This document shows positions 33,418 to 40,645 of a stretch of DNA of 64,000 bases, in pieces (positions within the stretch are counted from its first letter, which is position 1; each line of letters starts with the position of its first letter). The stretch is from contig VLTN01000006.1 in assembly GCA_008330645.1 (NCBI GenBank), positions 310,001 to 374,000 on the forward strand, written 5' to 3'. Origin of the DNA: Cafeteria roenbergensis. Its lineage: Eukaryota > Sar > Bigyra > Bicosoecida > Cafeteriaceae. A program made the translations under genes and the position numbers. The notes below the pieces were generated by a model, which was not told the origin of the DNA, searched no databases, and was given only the letters and a program-made list of their open reading frames with translations.

Positions 33418-34450
33418 TCACCAGCCCATGCCCATCCAAGACGCCACTCCCTTCGCGATGCCCCCGAACACGCCTTCGTCTGCCACGGCCGTCTTGCCTG
33501 CTTGCTCGCGGCGCTGGCGTGCAAGCCTCTCTTCGACGGTCTCCTGGCCGCGGCGCTCCGCGACCGCTCCGTCGCCGAAGAAGTCGTCCTCCTCCTCCTC
33601 CTCGAGGTACATGAGTGCGGAGGAGCTCGGCACGGAAGGCGACGAGGGCGCGCCTGAGGAGCCGAAGCTGTCGCGCTGCTGCTGCGCCTGCACCTCCCGC
33701 ACGCCGTTTACGGCAGCCAGGAGCGCCGGGCGCACGTCGTCGGCGCATGCACACCGGACAAACACCACGGCGCGGAAGGTGGTGGGGTCGATGGACACGG
33801 ACGTCACGGCAGGCACGAGGAGCAGTGCGTGGGTGTAGGCGTCCACGACCTGCTTGGTGCCCGGCGAGCCGGGAGGCGGCAGAAGGCCAGTCATGTCCAC
33901 CGTCACTGTGCGCATCTTGGGCTTGGCGGCCTCCGCCGCAGCAGCGAACATGGACCGGCGCTGGGGCTCGGCGGCCTTGCTCTTGCCCTTGGCGGCAGCG
34001 CCTCCAGCCAGGGCCGCGGCCGAGCTTGCCGGCCGCGGGGCCGACTCCGAGAGCGTGTCCAGCACGGCAGCTGCCTTTTCCTGGAGCCGGGGGGACGAGG
34101 CATCCCTGGAGAGGCGCTCCAGGGCGCTGCGGAGACCGGTGCACTCGTCCACCTTGCTCGAGCACTTGGGGTGCTTTGCAAGGAGCCGCAGCGCCTCCAG
34201 GGCGCACTCGCGGTAGCGCGGAAGGGATTTGTCGTTCTTAATCTCGGAGCCGATGCCATTGAGCATGCCTGCGCGGCCAGGGGAGGCGTACAAGGCGCGA
34301 TGCAACCAGTTGGTGGACGGCGACCAGCGAGCGCGATTTCGCGCAGCCCGCCTTGTCCCCGCTCGCTGGCTCACCCTTCTCGAGCACTGCGCCGTGGCAC
34401 GACGGGTCGCGAACCAAAACGAGGAGCCGTTCGACGAAGTGGGCGGCCAT
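33418..34450 (-). CDS. ARMC1: ARMC1-like armadillo/HMA-fold protein (308 aa)
   Basis: Exon 1 is 34450-34375 (25 codons plus one base), the intron is 34374-34269 (gtgagc...gcgcag), and exon 2 ends at 33418. The join reads GAVLEKG/MLNGIGSEIKND. Armadillo-like helices cover the first half (ECALEALRLLAKHPKCSS). The second half has the HMA-like fold of ARMC1 (KMRTVTVDMTGLLPPPG, then AVTSVSIDPTTFRAVVFVRC, then VNGVREVQAQQ), and the protein ends GGIAKGVASWMGMGW, as ARMC1 ends in an aromatic-rich tail. Animal ARMC1 acts at mitochondria with the MIB complex and affects mitochondrial distribution. The stop codon overlaps a GTGAGC donor word, so a further 3' exon cannot be excluded, though the C-terminus fits the family as it stands. 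Confidence 0.82.
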
Positions 34451-34645
34451 GACTCGGACTGCGGGGGCTGAGCGCGCAGGACAGGGCGGCAGACGCTGCC
34501 TGGGTGCGCAACCGGCGAGCCCGCCACCGCGCGGCTCTGCCCGCGAACAGTGCCGAGCAGAGCGCGCCCGCCAGTCCCGAGCAGCTTGCCTCCGACCGCG
34601 TGATCGCCGCGCGCGCCGCACACCCCCGCCAGCGAATCGAGGGTC
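34451..34645. promoter_or_regulatory. Shared 5' region of ARMC1-like and RanBP1-GALK genes
   Basis: These 195 nt separate the divergent ATGs at 34450 (minus) and 34646 (plus). They are almost uniformly GC-rich. I see no AT word, TATA-like box or other element. Confidence 0.45.
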
Positions 34646-37174
34646 ATGGCCGCCGCGTCCACTTTCTTCGAGGATGAGAGCGCCGTTGATGTGACCCAGT
34701 TCCGCCTTCCCGAGGTCGAGCTCCTGGAAAAGGCGCTCCCTTCGAACGAGGAGAACGAGGATGCTGTGTTCGAGCGGTGAGCAGCAGTGGCGGCGTCTCT
34801 GGCCGCTGCCCAGGCGCGGCTCCCGCCTCCTCCCTCCGTGTGGCGCGGTCAGCGCGGCCTGTGTGCCTCGCGCCCGACTGCCTGAGTCGCCACGAGCGGG
34901 CCTCTCCCCCCCTCGCCCCAGCGAGTGCTGCTTTCGCGCGGGGGCACCTTGCCTCTCGTTTGCCAGGTGTTGCATTCATGTGCTCCGGCCGCGGCGCGAC
35001 GGAGCCCCGAGCAAGGCCGGTGGCCCCTGGCGCCATCTCTAGCCCCAAGTTCGCGAGGCTGCCCATGGGGAAGGCGGGCAGCCCGGCCGGGGGCGGGGAG
35101 ACCATTGCGAAGCCAAAACGAGCCCACTTGCCGCCGTTTTTTTCGTCCGGGGTGGCCGGCGGATGTGTCGTTCGCTCGCCCCTCCCCCCCCCCCGCCCCA
35201 TTCCCCTTCCCTCGCACTCATCCGCGCTCCTGCGTCAGCATGGGGTGAAGGGCCTTGCTGCGATCCGTTCTCAATGCGTGACGTTCGCGATGCTCCCTCT
35301 GCCGCAGCATCTGCAAGCTGTTCCGCTTCCGCGAGGGCGAGTGGAAGGAGCGCGCCAAGGGCAACGTGCGCATCATGAAGCACAAGGTTTCCGGGGCCAT
35401 GCGTGTGATCATCCGCGAGGCTGCTTCTCTGTACGTGCGCGCCAACCACTTTGTGGACCCCAGCAGCCCCCTGACGGTGCCCGACGGCGACTCGACTGGC
35501 AAGCGCTTCCGCTTCGGCGCTGCTGACTTCTCCGACGCCGCTCTCACTGGCAGCCACACCATGGAGCAGTTCCTCATCTTCTTCCGCACGGCTGAGGACG
35601 CCGCGGAGTTCAAGGAGGCGCACGACGCCGCCCGGGAGGTGAACAAGACCGCCCTGGGCAAGGCCACTGGCGGGGCCGCCGCTGCCCCCGCCGCTGCCGC
35701 CGCCAGCGCCGCCGCCGTCGATGAGTCCGGCTCCGTCCCCGAGTCTACCGACCTGTCCGAGCTGTGGGGCGACTCCGACGAGGAGGTGAAGCGCCTGGAC
35801 GCCATGACCGCTGCCTTCACGGCCCGCTTCGGCGCCGAGCCCGAGTTCTTTGTGCGCGCCCCCGGCCGCGTGAACGTCATCGGCGAGCACATCGACTACC
35901 ACAACTTCTCCGTCCTGCCCTTCGCCCTGCGCCAGGACATCGTCTTCGCCGTGGCCACCGACGTCTCCACCTCGGGCGTGGAGGTGAGCAACACCAGCGA
36001 CGCCTTCGCCGACGCGACCCTCCCGGCCGACCCCAACGCGGCGGTTGACTCCGCCGACGGCGTCAAGTGGCAGCACTACTTCCAGGCCGGCTACAAGGCC
36101 GCCTTTGGCAAGATGGGCGACGCCACCGCGCCACGCGGCATGCGCGTCCTCGTGGACGGGCGCGTGCCCCCCGGCGGCGGTGTCTCTTCCAGCTCCGCCA
36201 TGAGCGTGGGCTCGTGCCTCGCCACTCTCAAGGCCCACGGCCACACCCTCTCCCGCGCCCAGCTGGCTGAGGCCGCGCAGAAGGCCGAGGCCGAGGCTGT
36301 CGGCACCATGAGCGGTGGCATGGACCAGGCCATCTGCGCCATGGGCGTCGCCGGCCAGGCCATGCGCGTCAACTTCAGCCCCCTCACCGTCGCCGCGGTC
36401 AACATCCCCTCCTCCGTCTCCTTCGTCGTTGCCAACTGCCTCGAGTCCTCCGAGAAGGCCGTTGGCCCCGAGCAGCGCTACAACAAGCGCGTCACCGAGG
36501 GCCTCCTCGCGACCAAGCTCATCGCAAAGAAGGCCGGCCTGGACCAGTGGAAGTCCATCAACGACATGCGCGCCCTCATGCGCGCCCTCGCCCTCGCAGG
36601 GCCTGGCGACCTCGCCGGCTCCGTCGAGGCCAACCTCAAGGAGGGCCCCTACACCGTGGCTGAGCTGGAAGACGCCGCTGAGTTCGGCGAGCCCCTCGCT
36701 GCCGTGCTCGCCGAGTGCGCCCAGCTCAAGCTCGCCAAGGCCGTCGTGGCCGCCGAGGGTGCCACCTTTGAGCTTCGCAAGCGTGCCCGGCACGTTGCGA
36801 CTGAGGCGCAGCGAGTCCTCGACTTTGCGGCCGCGTGCGCCGGCGAGCACACCGCCGACACCGTGGCCGAGCTCGGCGCCCTGATGGACGAGTCCCACTC
36901 CTCCTGCCGCGACGACTACGAGTGCTCCTCCGACGCGCTCGACCGCCTCGTGGGTGTGGCCAAGGCTGCCGGCGCCAAGGGCGCACGCCTCACTGGCGCA
37001 GGGTGGGGCGGCTGCATCGTCGCAATGGTGGACGCCGGCAAGGAGGCTGACGTCATCGCCGCCATGGATGCCGACTTCTACGCCGACAAGTCCGAAGAGG
37101 TTCGCTCGCAGGCCCGCTTCGCCAGCGCCCCGGCGTCCGGCGCCGCTGTCTACGTGGTTGACAACGACCTCTGA
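34646..37174 (+). CDS. Fusion of a RanBP1-type Ran-binding domain and a GALK2-like kinase (665 aa)
   Basis: Exon 1 is 34646-34776 (43 codons plus two bases), the intron is 34777-35307 (gtgagc...ccgcag), and exon 2 ends at 37174. The join reads EDAVFE/RICKLFRFREGEWKE, the start of a Ran-binding domain that continues with GNVRIMKHKVSGAMR and YVRANHFVDPSSPLT (about residues 18-158). An Ala/Pro linker (163-181) leads, in the same frame and exon, to a GHMP kinase: GRVNVIGEHIDYHNF (230-244), PPGGGVSSSSAMSVG (331-345), MSGGMDQ (378-384, with the catalytic Asp) and GARLTGAGWGGC (602-613). MSGGMDQ and SHSSCRDDYECS resemble N-acetylgalactosamine kinase (GALK2) more than GALK1. RanBP1 domains bind Ran-GTP. 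The linker contains no stop or splice site, so one polypeptide is predicted. Confidence 0.92.
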
Positions 37175-37399: not shown

Positions 37400-40300
37400 T
37401 CACGACTTCTTCGCCGGGGGCGTTTTGCCGCTTCGCCGAGCCTTGGCAGCTGCCCGCCCGCTTCCTGCCGCCAGCGGCCCGGCGGCGGCACGCGCGAGGA
37501 CCTTGGACTGCGCTGCGCGCTGCTTTGGCCGGCTGGACCGCGCCCCGGCCTCCGCCCCCCTGCTGGCCTTGACAGGCGGCACGAGCTCCTCTGCCATGGA
37601 CAAGGTCATCTGCGATGCCCCCAGCGGCCCGCTGCCCGGTCCGACGCTGCGGGTGAGGGCTTGGACGCGCCGCCGTCGCGCCGCCTCCCGTGCCGCCCTG
37701 ACCTCCTCGTCGCGCAGCCGGTCAGCACGGCTGATTGCCACCGAGGCGGCCTCCAGCGCCGCCCGGGGGTCGCTCGTATCCGGCGCTTCCTTCTCCTCGG
37801 CGGAGCCGCTGCCAGGGGCGAGCGCGCCCTGCTCGCGCAGTGGCGCCCGCAGGGGCGACCCCCCAAGCGCTGTCCCGCTCGCGACAGCGCTCCTGCCCGG
37901 CGGCTTGCCGCCGCCAGTCGGCGACGGGGCGGCTGCTCGCGTACCGGCCTCGCTGCCAGGCATGGTGGCGCTGCCGCTGCCGCTGCCGCTGCCGCTGCCG
38001 CCGCCGCTGGTGCCGAGAGCCGACAGATGCTCCTGCCCACGCGTGGCACTTCCCTCGGCGGGCACCTCCACGCCGGCTGCGCTCGGCGGGCGACCGGCCT
38101 CCACGGGCAATGGCTCCACCGGCAGCCACCGCGCGCTCGGGGCGGCCGACGGGCGAGAGGCTGCCATCAGCGCGGCTCTGCCCTGGCCGGCAATGGCCCC
38201 GGCCTCGCCGTCGCTGGACCCCGCCATGCGAGACGACGCGAGCGGCAGGACCTCCGCTGCCATGCCGCGCGACTTTGCCATGCCCGGCGGGGCGGCTGCC
38301 TCCACGACGTCGTCAGCCGAGGCCTGATCTCGACAGTCCAGCACCAGGCGGAGGCTCGCGTTGCCAGAGAGCGCCACGCCGCGAACGAGCCCCGTGTCCT
38401 CCACGAGCACGTGCTCGACGCCCAGCGCCCGCCCGCCGTGGCCCCTGGCGGCCTCTGCCAGCGCGCGCACGCCGCTCGTTGTGAGGCTGTTCCCGCGCAA
38501 ATCCCAGAGCCGGCAGCCGCTGGCCACGTGCAGCCTCAGGCGCAGGGCCCCCGCCGACAGGTCCCCGCTCTCGGGGTGAAGGAGGGCTGCGATGGCTCTC
38601 GCACCGGCGTCGGTGATGCCGTTGCCGCGCAGGTCAATCGCCCGCGGGCCCCACCCCAGCCCACCACCCGCAGCGGAGGCCAGTCGCCCGCTGCCCGCCG
38701 GCCGGGCCTCCTTCACCGCCGGCCTCCTGTCGTCCTCGCCCGCCCCCTCCTCGCCCACACTGCCGCCGTTGGGATCGGCCAGCTCCTCCTCCTCGGCCAG
38801 CCCCTCCTCGAGCGCCGCAGCAGGAGACTGCGACGGCGTGCGCAGCGGCAGCGGCAGCTCCGAGAGCATCACGCACACGGCAGCTGCCCCGTCATCGCCC
38901 AGCGCAAGCCCGCTCAGGTCCAGCGTGGGCACGCGCCCGCTGGCCAGCGCGCCGCCGCCCCCGGCCACCCCGAACAGGGACAGGCACGGGTCCCACCCTC
39001 CCGCGCCTCCCGGCCCCACGAGCACGTGAGAGGGCGGGCGCTGCGCCGTGGCAACCGGCAGAGCCAGCGCTGGCGCCGCGACCGACGCCACCACGCGCGA
39101 CAGCAGCGCTCGCTGCCCGAACGCCGCCCTCGCCGACTGGGCCGCCACGAGAGCGTCCGCAGCGGCGGCGCTCCCGCTCAGCACCGCCCTGCCCTCGCCC
39201 GGCGCCCCGGCCGTGCCGGTCAGCCGGCGCCCTGCCCTGTGCCGCGCTGGCGCGCCCTCGGCAGCAGCCGCCTTGGCGGCCTGGTTTCCCGGTCGCGCTG
39301 CGCCGTCCTCGGCCGCCGGGCCGACGTCGCTCGCCGCCGGTGCCGCCGCGGACCCGGCCGTCGCAGCGGCAGCTGAGGCAGCGGCAACGGTGTGCCCGAG
39401 CGCCACCACGCCCTCGTCGGCGGCGGCGGCCGCAGCCGCGTCTCGTGCTGCCTTGGACGCCGCCTCTGCTGCCGCGGCGCGTCGGCCGGCCTCTGCCGCC
39501 TCGCGCTCCAGCCTCGTCACGGCATGCGCCAGCGCCGCTCGCGCATCCACCGCTGCCTGCGTCCGGGCCTCGGCGGCCTCGGCACGCGCTGCCAGAGCCG
39601 CGCCCTCCACCCGCAGCCGGTGCGCCTCGTCCTGGCACCGGACGAGCTCTCTCTCAGCGGCCGCGCCGGACTCGGCCAGCTTTGCGGTCAGCGTGCCCTC
39701 CTTGCCCCTGGCCGCCTTGACGCGCCTCACCTCCGCCTCGGCCACCAATGCGCGCTCCCGCGCGGCAGCCACCTCCCGCTCCAGGGCGCTGGCGCGGGCA
39801 GCAAGCTCCGTCTCGCGGCTCGTGGCCGCCCCTGAGGCCTGCAGCTGCCGCTGCTCGGACTGCAGCAGCCGCTGCCGCGCCGCGCGAGCCGCTGCCTCCG
39901 CCGCCTCCGCCCGGTCCGCCGCCACCCGCTCGGCGTCCTGCGACCGCTGAAGTCGCTCCAGCAGCGCGTAGTGGCGCTCCCGCCGCAGACGGAGCTCCTC
40001 CGACGCTGCCTCGTCCCGCGCGCCCGCCGCCGCGCCGCCGGTTGTGGGCCCGCCCCCGTCGCCGCGGGCCGCTGCCTCGGGGCGGCTCACGTGAAGCTTG
40101 GCGGCACGAGCCAGCTCGCGAGCGGCCACCGCCTCAGCCTCTGCGTCGGCCCGCGCGCGTTGCGCGGCCGCAACCTCCCCACGGAGGGCTGCTGCGGCCG
40201 CGTCCGCAGCAGCTGCGCGCGTGATGGCGCGGTCGAGGCGCGACCGTGCGTCGAGGGCGTCGGCGTCAGCCTCGCGGCTGCGAGCCTCAGCGCTGCTGGC

Positions 40301-40645
40301 CCGGGCCTCCGCCGCGCGAAGGAGTCTCAGAAGCTGCATGTTCTGGACCGTCGTCGTGTCCGCGGCCTGCTCTCGTCCGCGGAGCTCCTCGGTTGCCAGC
40401 TCGGACGCCATGGTGCGCCGCGCCGCCCTGGTCGCCTCCCTCCGGGCGCGCTCCGCTTCCTCCTGCGCGGCCAGGTTGGCCGCCTGGAGCTTTTCGAGGC
40501 GTGCTTCCATCGAGTCGACCGCGTCGCGAAGGGCGGCGTTCTCGCGGGCCAGCTCTTGCACGCGCGCGTTCGCGCCTTGCAACGACTCGTGAGCAGCTTT
40601 CGTGGCGACATCGCGCACCTGCATCGACGCAGAGAGCTCCTCCAT
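37400..40645 (-). CDS. Coiled-coil protein with leucine-rich repeats (1,081 aa)
   Basis: Residues 1 to about 480 form a long Ala/Glu/Arg-rich coiled coil (for example NARVQELARENAALRDAVDS). The central part is low complexity. Between roughly residues 650 and 900 there are leucine-rich repeats of the ribonuclease-inhibitor type: PTLDLSGLALGDDGAAAV, AIDLRGNGITDAGARAIAAL and RLWDLRGNSLTTSGVRALAE. The C-terminal 250 residues are disordered, with Gly-Ser dipeptide repeats (GSGSGSGSGS, nt about 37973-37999), and end in a basic tail (KARRSGKTPPAKKS). ATG 40645 begins MEELSASMQVRDVATKA, directly at the coiled coil. A scaffold or cytoskeletal role is plausible but unproven. It converges on the RanBP1-GALK gene with 225 nt between stops. 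Confidence 0.75.
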   Translation of the reverse strand: MEELSASMQVRDVATKAAHESLQGANARVQELARENAALRDAVDSMEARLEKLQAANLAAQEEAERARREATRAARRTMASELATEELRGREQAADTTTVQNMQLLRLLRAAEARASSAEARSREADADALDARSRLDRAITRAAAADAAAAALRGEVAAAQRARADAEAEAVAARELARAAKLHVSRPEAAARGDGGGPTTGGAAAGARDEAASEELRLRRERHYALLERLQRSQDAERVAADRAEAAEAAARAARQRLLQSEQRQLQASGAATSRETELAARASALEREVAAARERALVAEAEVRRVKAARGKEGTLTAKLAESGAAAERELVRCQDEAHRLRVEGAALAARAEAAEARTQAAVDARAALAHAVTRLEREAAEAGRRAAAAEAASKAARDAAAAAAADEGVVALGHTVAAASAAAATAGSAAAPAASDVGPAAEDGAARPGNQAAKAAAAEGAPARHRAGRRLTGTAGAPGEGRAVLSGSAAAADALVAAQSARAAFGQRALLSRVVASVAAPALALPVATAQRPPSHVLVGPGGAGGWDPCLSLFGVAGGGGALASGRVPTLDLSGLALGDDGAAAVCVMLSELPLPLRTPSQSPAAALEEGLAEEEELADPNGGSVGEEGAGEDDRRPAVKEARPAGSGRLASAAGGGLGWGPRAIDLRGNGITDAGARAIAALLHPESGDLSAGALRLRLHVASGCRLWDLRGNSLTTSGVRALAEAARGHGGRALGVEHVLVEDTGLVRGVALSGNASLRLVLDCRDQASADDVVEAAAPPGMAKSRGMAAEVLPLASSRMAGSSDGEAGAIAGQGRAALMAASRPSAAPSARWLPVEPLPVEAGRPPSAAGVEVPAEGSATRGQEHLSALGTSGGGSGSGSGSGSATMPGSEAGTRAAAPSPTGGGKPPGRSAVASGTALGGSPLRAPLREQGALAPGSGSAEEKEAPDTSDPRAALEAASVAISRADRLRDEEVRAAREAARRRRVQALTRSVGPGSGPLGASQMTLSMAEELVPPVKASRGAEAGARSSRPKQRAAQSKVLARAAAGPLAAGSGRAAAKARRSGKTPPAKKS

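Follow-up and report, generated by a model that had tools for sequence, protein, structure and literature searches.

Does the locus examined here encode a single protein in which a RanBP1-type Ran-binding domain (RanBD) is joined to a galactokinase-like sugar kinase, and if so, what would such a protein do? The pairing is an unexpected one: one half belongs to the traffic through the nuclear pore, the other to the phosphorylation of galactose-type sugars. RanBP1 is central to the Ran cycle, and in yeast and animals it is a small free-standing protein, typically consisting of the RanBD only (201 amino acids in both the yeast and the human forms). The organism is Cafeteria roenbergensis, probably strain BVI, which appears to live freely in the sea as a flagellate and which we take to be the same species as Cafeteria burkhardae. 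The latter name is the one used in PMC8547959. The gene lies on the plus strand at positions 34646–37174 of the stretch of DNA that was analysed (64 kb, about 71% GC; hereafter the window), and its two exons encode 665 amino acids after splicing (Table 1), with a predicted mass of 69.9 kDa. Judging from its sequence, we think that this one nuclear gene probably gives rise to one 665-residue protein, which serves as RanBP1 and at the same time as a galactokinase or GalNAc kinase.

The initial annotation had placed a single intron in this gene and had read the RanBD, the linker and the kinase in one frame across these coordinates. Both claims were borne out, the latter by translation and by Pfam analysis of the spliced protein, the former by the GT-AG borders of the intron, the preservation of the frame, the stop that follows directly after exon 1 if positions 34777–35307 are retained, and the completion of the RanBD by exon 1. 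The ends of the gene are exact, with an ATG at 34646 and the last base of the stop codon at 37174; 5′ of the ATG, the first in-frame stop is a TGA at 34601, with no other ATG in between. Unspliced, the frame that contains exon 2 comprises 630 amino acids and is open from 35282. Scanning of donors between 34700 and 34860 and acceptors between 35180 and 35330 yielded four GT-AG pairs that keep the frame. Three of these remove part of the start of the RanBD, and the chosen pair is the only one of the four with a GTGAGC donor and a pyrimidine-rich acceptor. The introns of the Ran gene and of a second RanBD gene, on contig C12, likewise begin with GTGAGC and end with CCGCAG, as does that of the fusion gene. 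Without exon 1, the RanBD scored 52.8 bits over profile positions 17–120, against 62.8 bits over positions 4–120 for the spliced protein (the two values come from different searches); in the predicted transcript, it is splicing that makes the domain complete. At the level of sequence, the observation of a RanBD–kinase fusion is confirmed, and the gene looks real.

Table 1. Features of the predicted fusion gene and its protein product (positions are those of the window).
Feature	Residues	Position	Strand	Content or evidence
Exon 1	1–43 and first two bases of codon 44	34646..34776	+	Start of RanBD
Intron		34777..35307	+	531 nt, GT-AG; donor GTGAGC, acceptor CTCCCTCTGCCGCAG
Exon 2		35308..37174	+	Rest of RanBD, linker, entire kinase, stop codon
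RanBP1-type RanBD	33–153	34742..35635, intron inside	+	Pfam PF00638, 62.8 bits, E 4.7e-17, profile 4–120 of 122
Linker	154–205	35636..35791	+	Ala-rich, then acidic (Ser/Glu/Asp); no Met inside
GALK2-like kinase	206–665	35792..37171	+	PDB match human GALK2 2a2c, E 5.1e-82 over 206–659
Galactose-binding signature	213–260	35813..35956	+	PF10509, 72.3 bits on spliced protein (cut-off 23.1)
GHMP kinase N-terminal domain	310–390	36104..36346	+	PF00288, 59.8 bits (cut-off 22.3); holds D383
GHMP kinase C-terminal domain	564–635	36866..37081	+	PF08544, 51.2 bits (cut-off 21); motif LTGAGWGGC

The score of the RanBD lies above the curated Pfam cut-off of 23.2 bits, which places the domain in the RanBP1 family, and in an alignment with RanBP1 the EWKER and ANH motifs are kept. 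Amongst PDB sequences it matched the RanBP2 chain with an E value of 3.9e-55, a sum over the four RanBDs of that chain, and the single RanBD of 5cll_B with an E value of 7.2e-18; like the Pfam hits, these matches are well outside what chance would give. The architecture is not that of a typical RanBP1, in which the RanBD is the sole domain. Three kinase families follow it in Pfam, and for this reason we do not class the protein as a typical RanBP1 but call it a RanBD fusion, one whose function may be that of RanBP1.

In the kinase half, the three Pfam families together span residues 213–635 of the spliced protein, all of them over their curated cut-offs, and 178 of 434 aligned positions are identical to human GALK2. 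Residues R231, E237, H238, D240, Y241 and D383 align with R43, E49, H50, D52, Y53 and D190 of GALK2, which we take to be residues with sugar-binding and catalytic roles. The PDB scores fall from GALK2 (279.6 bits) through yeast Gal1 (179.2 bits) to GALK1 (about 123 bits), and by this ranking of PDB sequences, as distinct from a tree, the kinase appears to be more closely related to GALK2 than to either of the other two. The GALK2-like assignment that had been made earlier, with its motifs and catalytic Asp, thus agrees with the Pfam matches, the PDB match, the GALK2 alignment and the presence of D383. A structure prediction for residues 45–665, made without an alignment, gave a mean pLDDT of 36.2 and a pTM of 0.22, values too low to be informative.

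The evidence for one gene rather than two lies chiefly in the linker. The reading frame of the RanBD contains no stop until the one that ends the kinase, and across residues 156–205 the fusion frame is the only one open, with a TGA in each of the other two. Furthermore, the first Met after the RanBD is M209, three residues past the point (206) at which homology to the kinase starts, which leaves no room for an ordinary two-gene reading. A simpler argument, from the openness of the linker as such, was dropped because open stretches are common in this GC-rich window: 65.9% of 20,000 random 150-nt stretches were open in a given frame, as were 275 of 381 intron stretches by the same measure. The GC content at the three codon positions is 0.72/0.62/0.90 in the linker, 0.65/0.42/0.87 in the RanBD and 0.70/0.50/0.91 in the kinase, compared with 0.70/0.68/0.75 in the intron and 0.64/0.85/0.82 in the 5′ flank. 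The linker is therefore coding-like at the third position, whilst its second position lies between the coding and the intron values and nearer to the latter; given this, and the high values in the 5′ flank, we take codon-position GC as mild support only.

These observations bear on the possibility that there are two separate transcripts, with the RanBD spliced from within the linker to another 3′ end and the kinase using a start of its own, so that the continuous frame would be a coincidence. GT dinucleotides are indeed present in the linker, and the frequency of open stretches in the window means that an open frame could arise by chance. An independent kinase starting at M209, however, would be without its usual N-terminus, the RanBD would have no stop before the final one, and the high third-position GC throughout the linker argues mildly in the same direction. 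Considering the frame, the TGA codons and the position of the Met together, a two-gene reading needs either an unseen 3′ exon along with a truncated kinase start, or an error in the sequence, and we regard separate transcripts as unlikely.

To place the single fusion gene in its genomic context, the assembly (36,303,456 bases in 167 contigs) was searched exon by exon, which means that an intron-split RanBP1, GALT or galactokinase could be missed. In these searches the galactokinase signature was found at one locus, the fusion gene itself, and PF00288 at four, namely the fusion gene and three other GHMP kinases. One of the latter, at 975688–975924 (−) on contig C1, is presumably fucokinase-like and is the convergent neighbour of a USP-like gene at 973384–974274 (+). 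The further two GHMP kinase loci, one on contig C14 and one at C12:412789–412989, have motifs that we take to resemble those of glucuronokinase and mevalonate kinase. No second copy of the fusion gene was found in the assembly; a DNA search with the whole gene matched in full at a single place, and the 31 other matches were short and weak and all fall at query positions 1002–1098, in the Ala-rich linker DNA. Three RanBD loci were detected at E values up to 10, with unspliced scores of 52.8, 26.5 and 23.7 bits. As spliced or whole proteins, the fusion scored 62.8 bits and the other two 31.7 (C12) and 27.3 bits (C54), so that the fusion gene is the best candidate for RanBP1 in the assembly. Since the sole galactokinase locus found and the strongest of the three RanBD loci are one and the same gene, its product probably fills both roles, that of RanBP1 and that of a galactokinase. 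The union of the strongest RanBP1-type domain with the only detected galactokinase would mean that RanBP1 tolerates, or uses, a large enzyme partner.

The other RanBD genes deserve a brief description. The gene on contig C12 (minus strand; exon 1, 317668–317420; exon 2, 317214–314881) is a second candidate RanBD–enzyme fusion, with a predicted 860 amino acids; Pfam, applied to its first 605 residues, shows a divergent RanBD and, downstream in the same frame, a SAM methyltransferase domain (57.2 bits). It also has repeats of Ala, Glu and Lys and, seen by eye, a hydrophobic stretch towards the C-terminus. Met residues are present between its two domains, which makes the case against two genes weaker there. 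The third gene, at C54:157944–161234 (frame 571–1836 of that stretch), has a C-terminal RanBD and an N-terminal SFASFAGGQGSAF stretch that we take to resemble RanBP3/Yrb2; its protein had no PDB match at an E value of 0.1. Ran itself is encoded at C25:51150–52211 (−) by an intron-split gene whose product ends in the acidic C-terminal tail LPEGDDFD, and a CRM1 gene was found as well. Compared with human Ran, the exon-1 part is 68% identical, in a match that runs past the donor site and therefore counts two stops, and the exon-2 part is 45% identical, the C-terminal half being rather divergent. Of the two reverse-strand frames that flank the fusion gene, 33421–34647 had no Pfam match, and 37403–40645 had a single one, a weak match to LRR_6 (24.2 bits). 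Relatives of the exon-2 protein were sought in viral contigs, with one pattern stretch found, and in prokaryote genome contigs, with 13, none of which was confirmed; as these collections hold viruses and prokaryotes, the result says little about protists.

For the fate of the sugar phosphate, the complement of partner enzymes is informative. The GALT of the Leloir pathway had no match in the exon-by-exon search of the assembly; 6 of 14 control genomes were positive. The UDPGP family is represented by three loci, whose best PDB matches mark them as USP-like (MbUSP, E 2.9e-143), UAP-like (UDP-GlcNAc pyrophosphorylase, E 6.3e-109) and UGP-like (UGP, E 1.4e-126), and GALE by one gene, the only one of 13 galE matches over the cut-off (299.9 bits). 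The presence of these genes where GALT was not found suggests that sugar salvage may be GALT-independent. Leishmania is reported to salvage galactose through USP, with a gene for a putative galactokinase and apparently no GALT (PMC4722067). By analogy, a Leishmania-like salvage of galactose via USP would be the natural reading here, the alternative being that GalNAc-1-phosphate is used via UAP.

We therefore arrive at a scheme, drawn from what is usual in the two families, in which the RanBD would release Ran-GTP from transport receptors as it leaves the nucleus, making it accessible to RanGAP, and the kinase would make Gal-1-phosphate or GalNAc-1-phosphate in the cytosol. With no GALT being detectable, a USP- or UAP-like enzyme would then turn the sugar-1-phosphate into UDP-sugars. 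The two halves probably work alongside each other in a bifunctional protein and do not form a regulated pair. A regulated pair would be a Ran-coupled sugar kinase, in which Ran-GTP binding or tethering at the pore regulates the activity or place of the kinase, or in which Ran turnover responds to the sugar state. The physical fusion itself speaks for such coupling, and so do the yeast relatives Gal3 and Gal1, which act in galactose sensing, Gal3 being amongst the PDB matches of the fusion. In addition, the RanBP1 and RanGAP of trypanosomes have been located on the cytoplasmic face of the pore (PMC11825100), a place that the fused enzyme would share if the trypanosome location applied. However, Pfam, as opposed to a dedicated search for tethers, finds no further, possibly tethering domain, and the active-site residues are intact, as in an ordinary enzyme, so we consider this coupling very unlikely. 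The initial annotation had proposed that the fusion could place the kinase near the nuclear pore or couple Ran-GTP to nucleotide-sugar metabolism. Its fusion model, intron, GALK2-like assignment and motifs stand, but this part of its interpretation found no support, and plain bifunctionality is likelier. Least likely of all is an error of assembly or base-calling in the linker, hiding a stop or joining two loci: the DNA of the linker is full of GCC and repeats itself, with its 31 other weak matches elsewhere in the genome, but the published C. roenbergensis BVI assembly, if that is the one analysed here, was made from PacBio reads and is described as polished in two rounds, first with PacBio and afterwards with Illumina data (PMC6972860), and with the RanBD and the kinase in the same frame a lone indel is no explanation.

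Returning to the bifunctional protein, its size may bear on where the RanBD is located. Proteins of ~70 kDa pass the nuclear pore poorly, and at 69.9 kDa the kinase might hold the RanBD in the cytoplasm. Inside the nucleus, RanBP1 sequesters Ran-GTP and is toxic; its export depends in animals on a C-terminal NES and in fungi on contacts between the RanBD and CRM1, amongst them that of yeast V150, which is V or I among fungi (PMC6524963). The residue of the fusion that aligns with yeast V150 is a G, within PDGDSTGKRF, and the residue of Cafeteria CRM1 that aligns with human Q742 (yeast T753) is, as counted by hand in the alignment, an M, which is neither type and so favours neither export route. 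None of six simple NES patterns was matched within residues 156–212, although this is a weak test, given that the whole protein had 14 matches against a mean of 14.06 for 500 shuffled copies. Because nuclear RanBP1 does harm in other organisms, and the fusion shows no apparent NES of the animal type and no apparent counterpart of the residue by which the fungal form contacts CRM1, we suggest tentatively that the kinase might also serve as ballast, by which the RanBD is kept cytoplasmic through size. The fusion thus makes testable the question of whether size, in place of an export signal, can retain RanBP1 in the cytoplasm. A bolder version, in which the kinase does so for the main RanBP1 of the cell and Ran-GTP loading or proximity to the pore in turn sets the site or rate at which UDP-sugar precursors are made, strikes us as quite doubtful.

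In conclusion, the gene is probably a real, new combination of two known families, and its product would most simply be a bifunctional protein. Among the open-access papers listed in our literature searches, we found no report of a RanBD–galactokinase fusion. The published CrBVI protein set, given as 8,483 proteins (PMC6972860 Table 3), presumably already holds the gene.

The fusion can be set against four known systems. Like RanBP1 (yeast Yrb1 and human RanBP1), it has one RanBD near the N-terminus, with the EWKER and ANH motifs, but here a linker and then a kinase of 460 residues come after the RanBD; it differs further in the G at the position of yeast V150 and, by the weak test applied, in having no animal-type C-terminal NES pattern in residues 156–212. 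The RanBDs of RanBP2/Nup358 are amongst the best PDB matches of its RanBD, although four were matched there, whereas the fusion consists of one RanBD and three kinase families and nothing else (Pfam, E 0.001). With human GALK2 (N-acetylgalactosamine kinase, PDB 2a2c) it shares homology over residues 206–659 and the equivalents of R43, E49, H50, D52 and D190, and it differs in its N-terminal RanBD and in motif 2, which reads PPGGGVSSSSA in place of PPSSGLSSSSA. Finally, Cafeteria resembles Leishmania, with its galactose salvage through USP (PMC4722067), in having a galactokinase and USP-like genes where GALT was not found, with the difference that the galactokinase of Cafeteria is fused to a RanBD.
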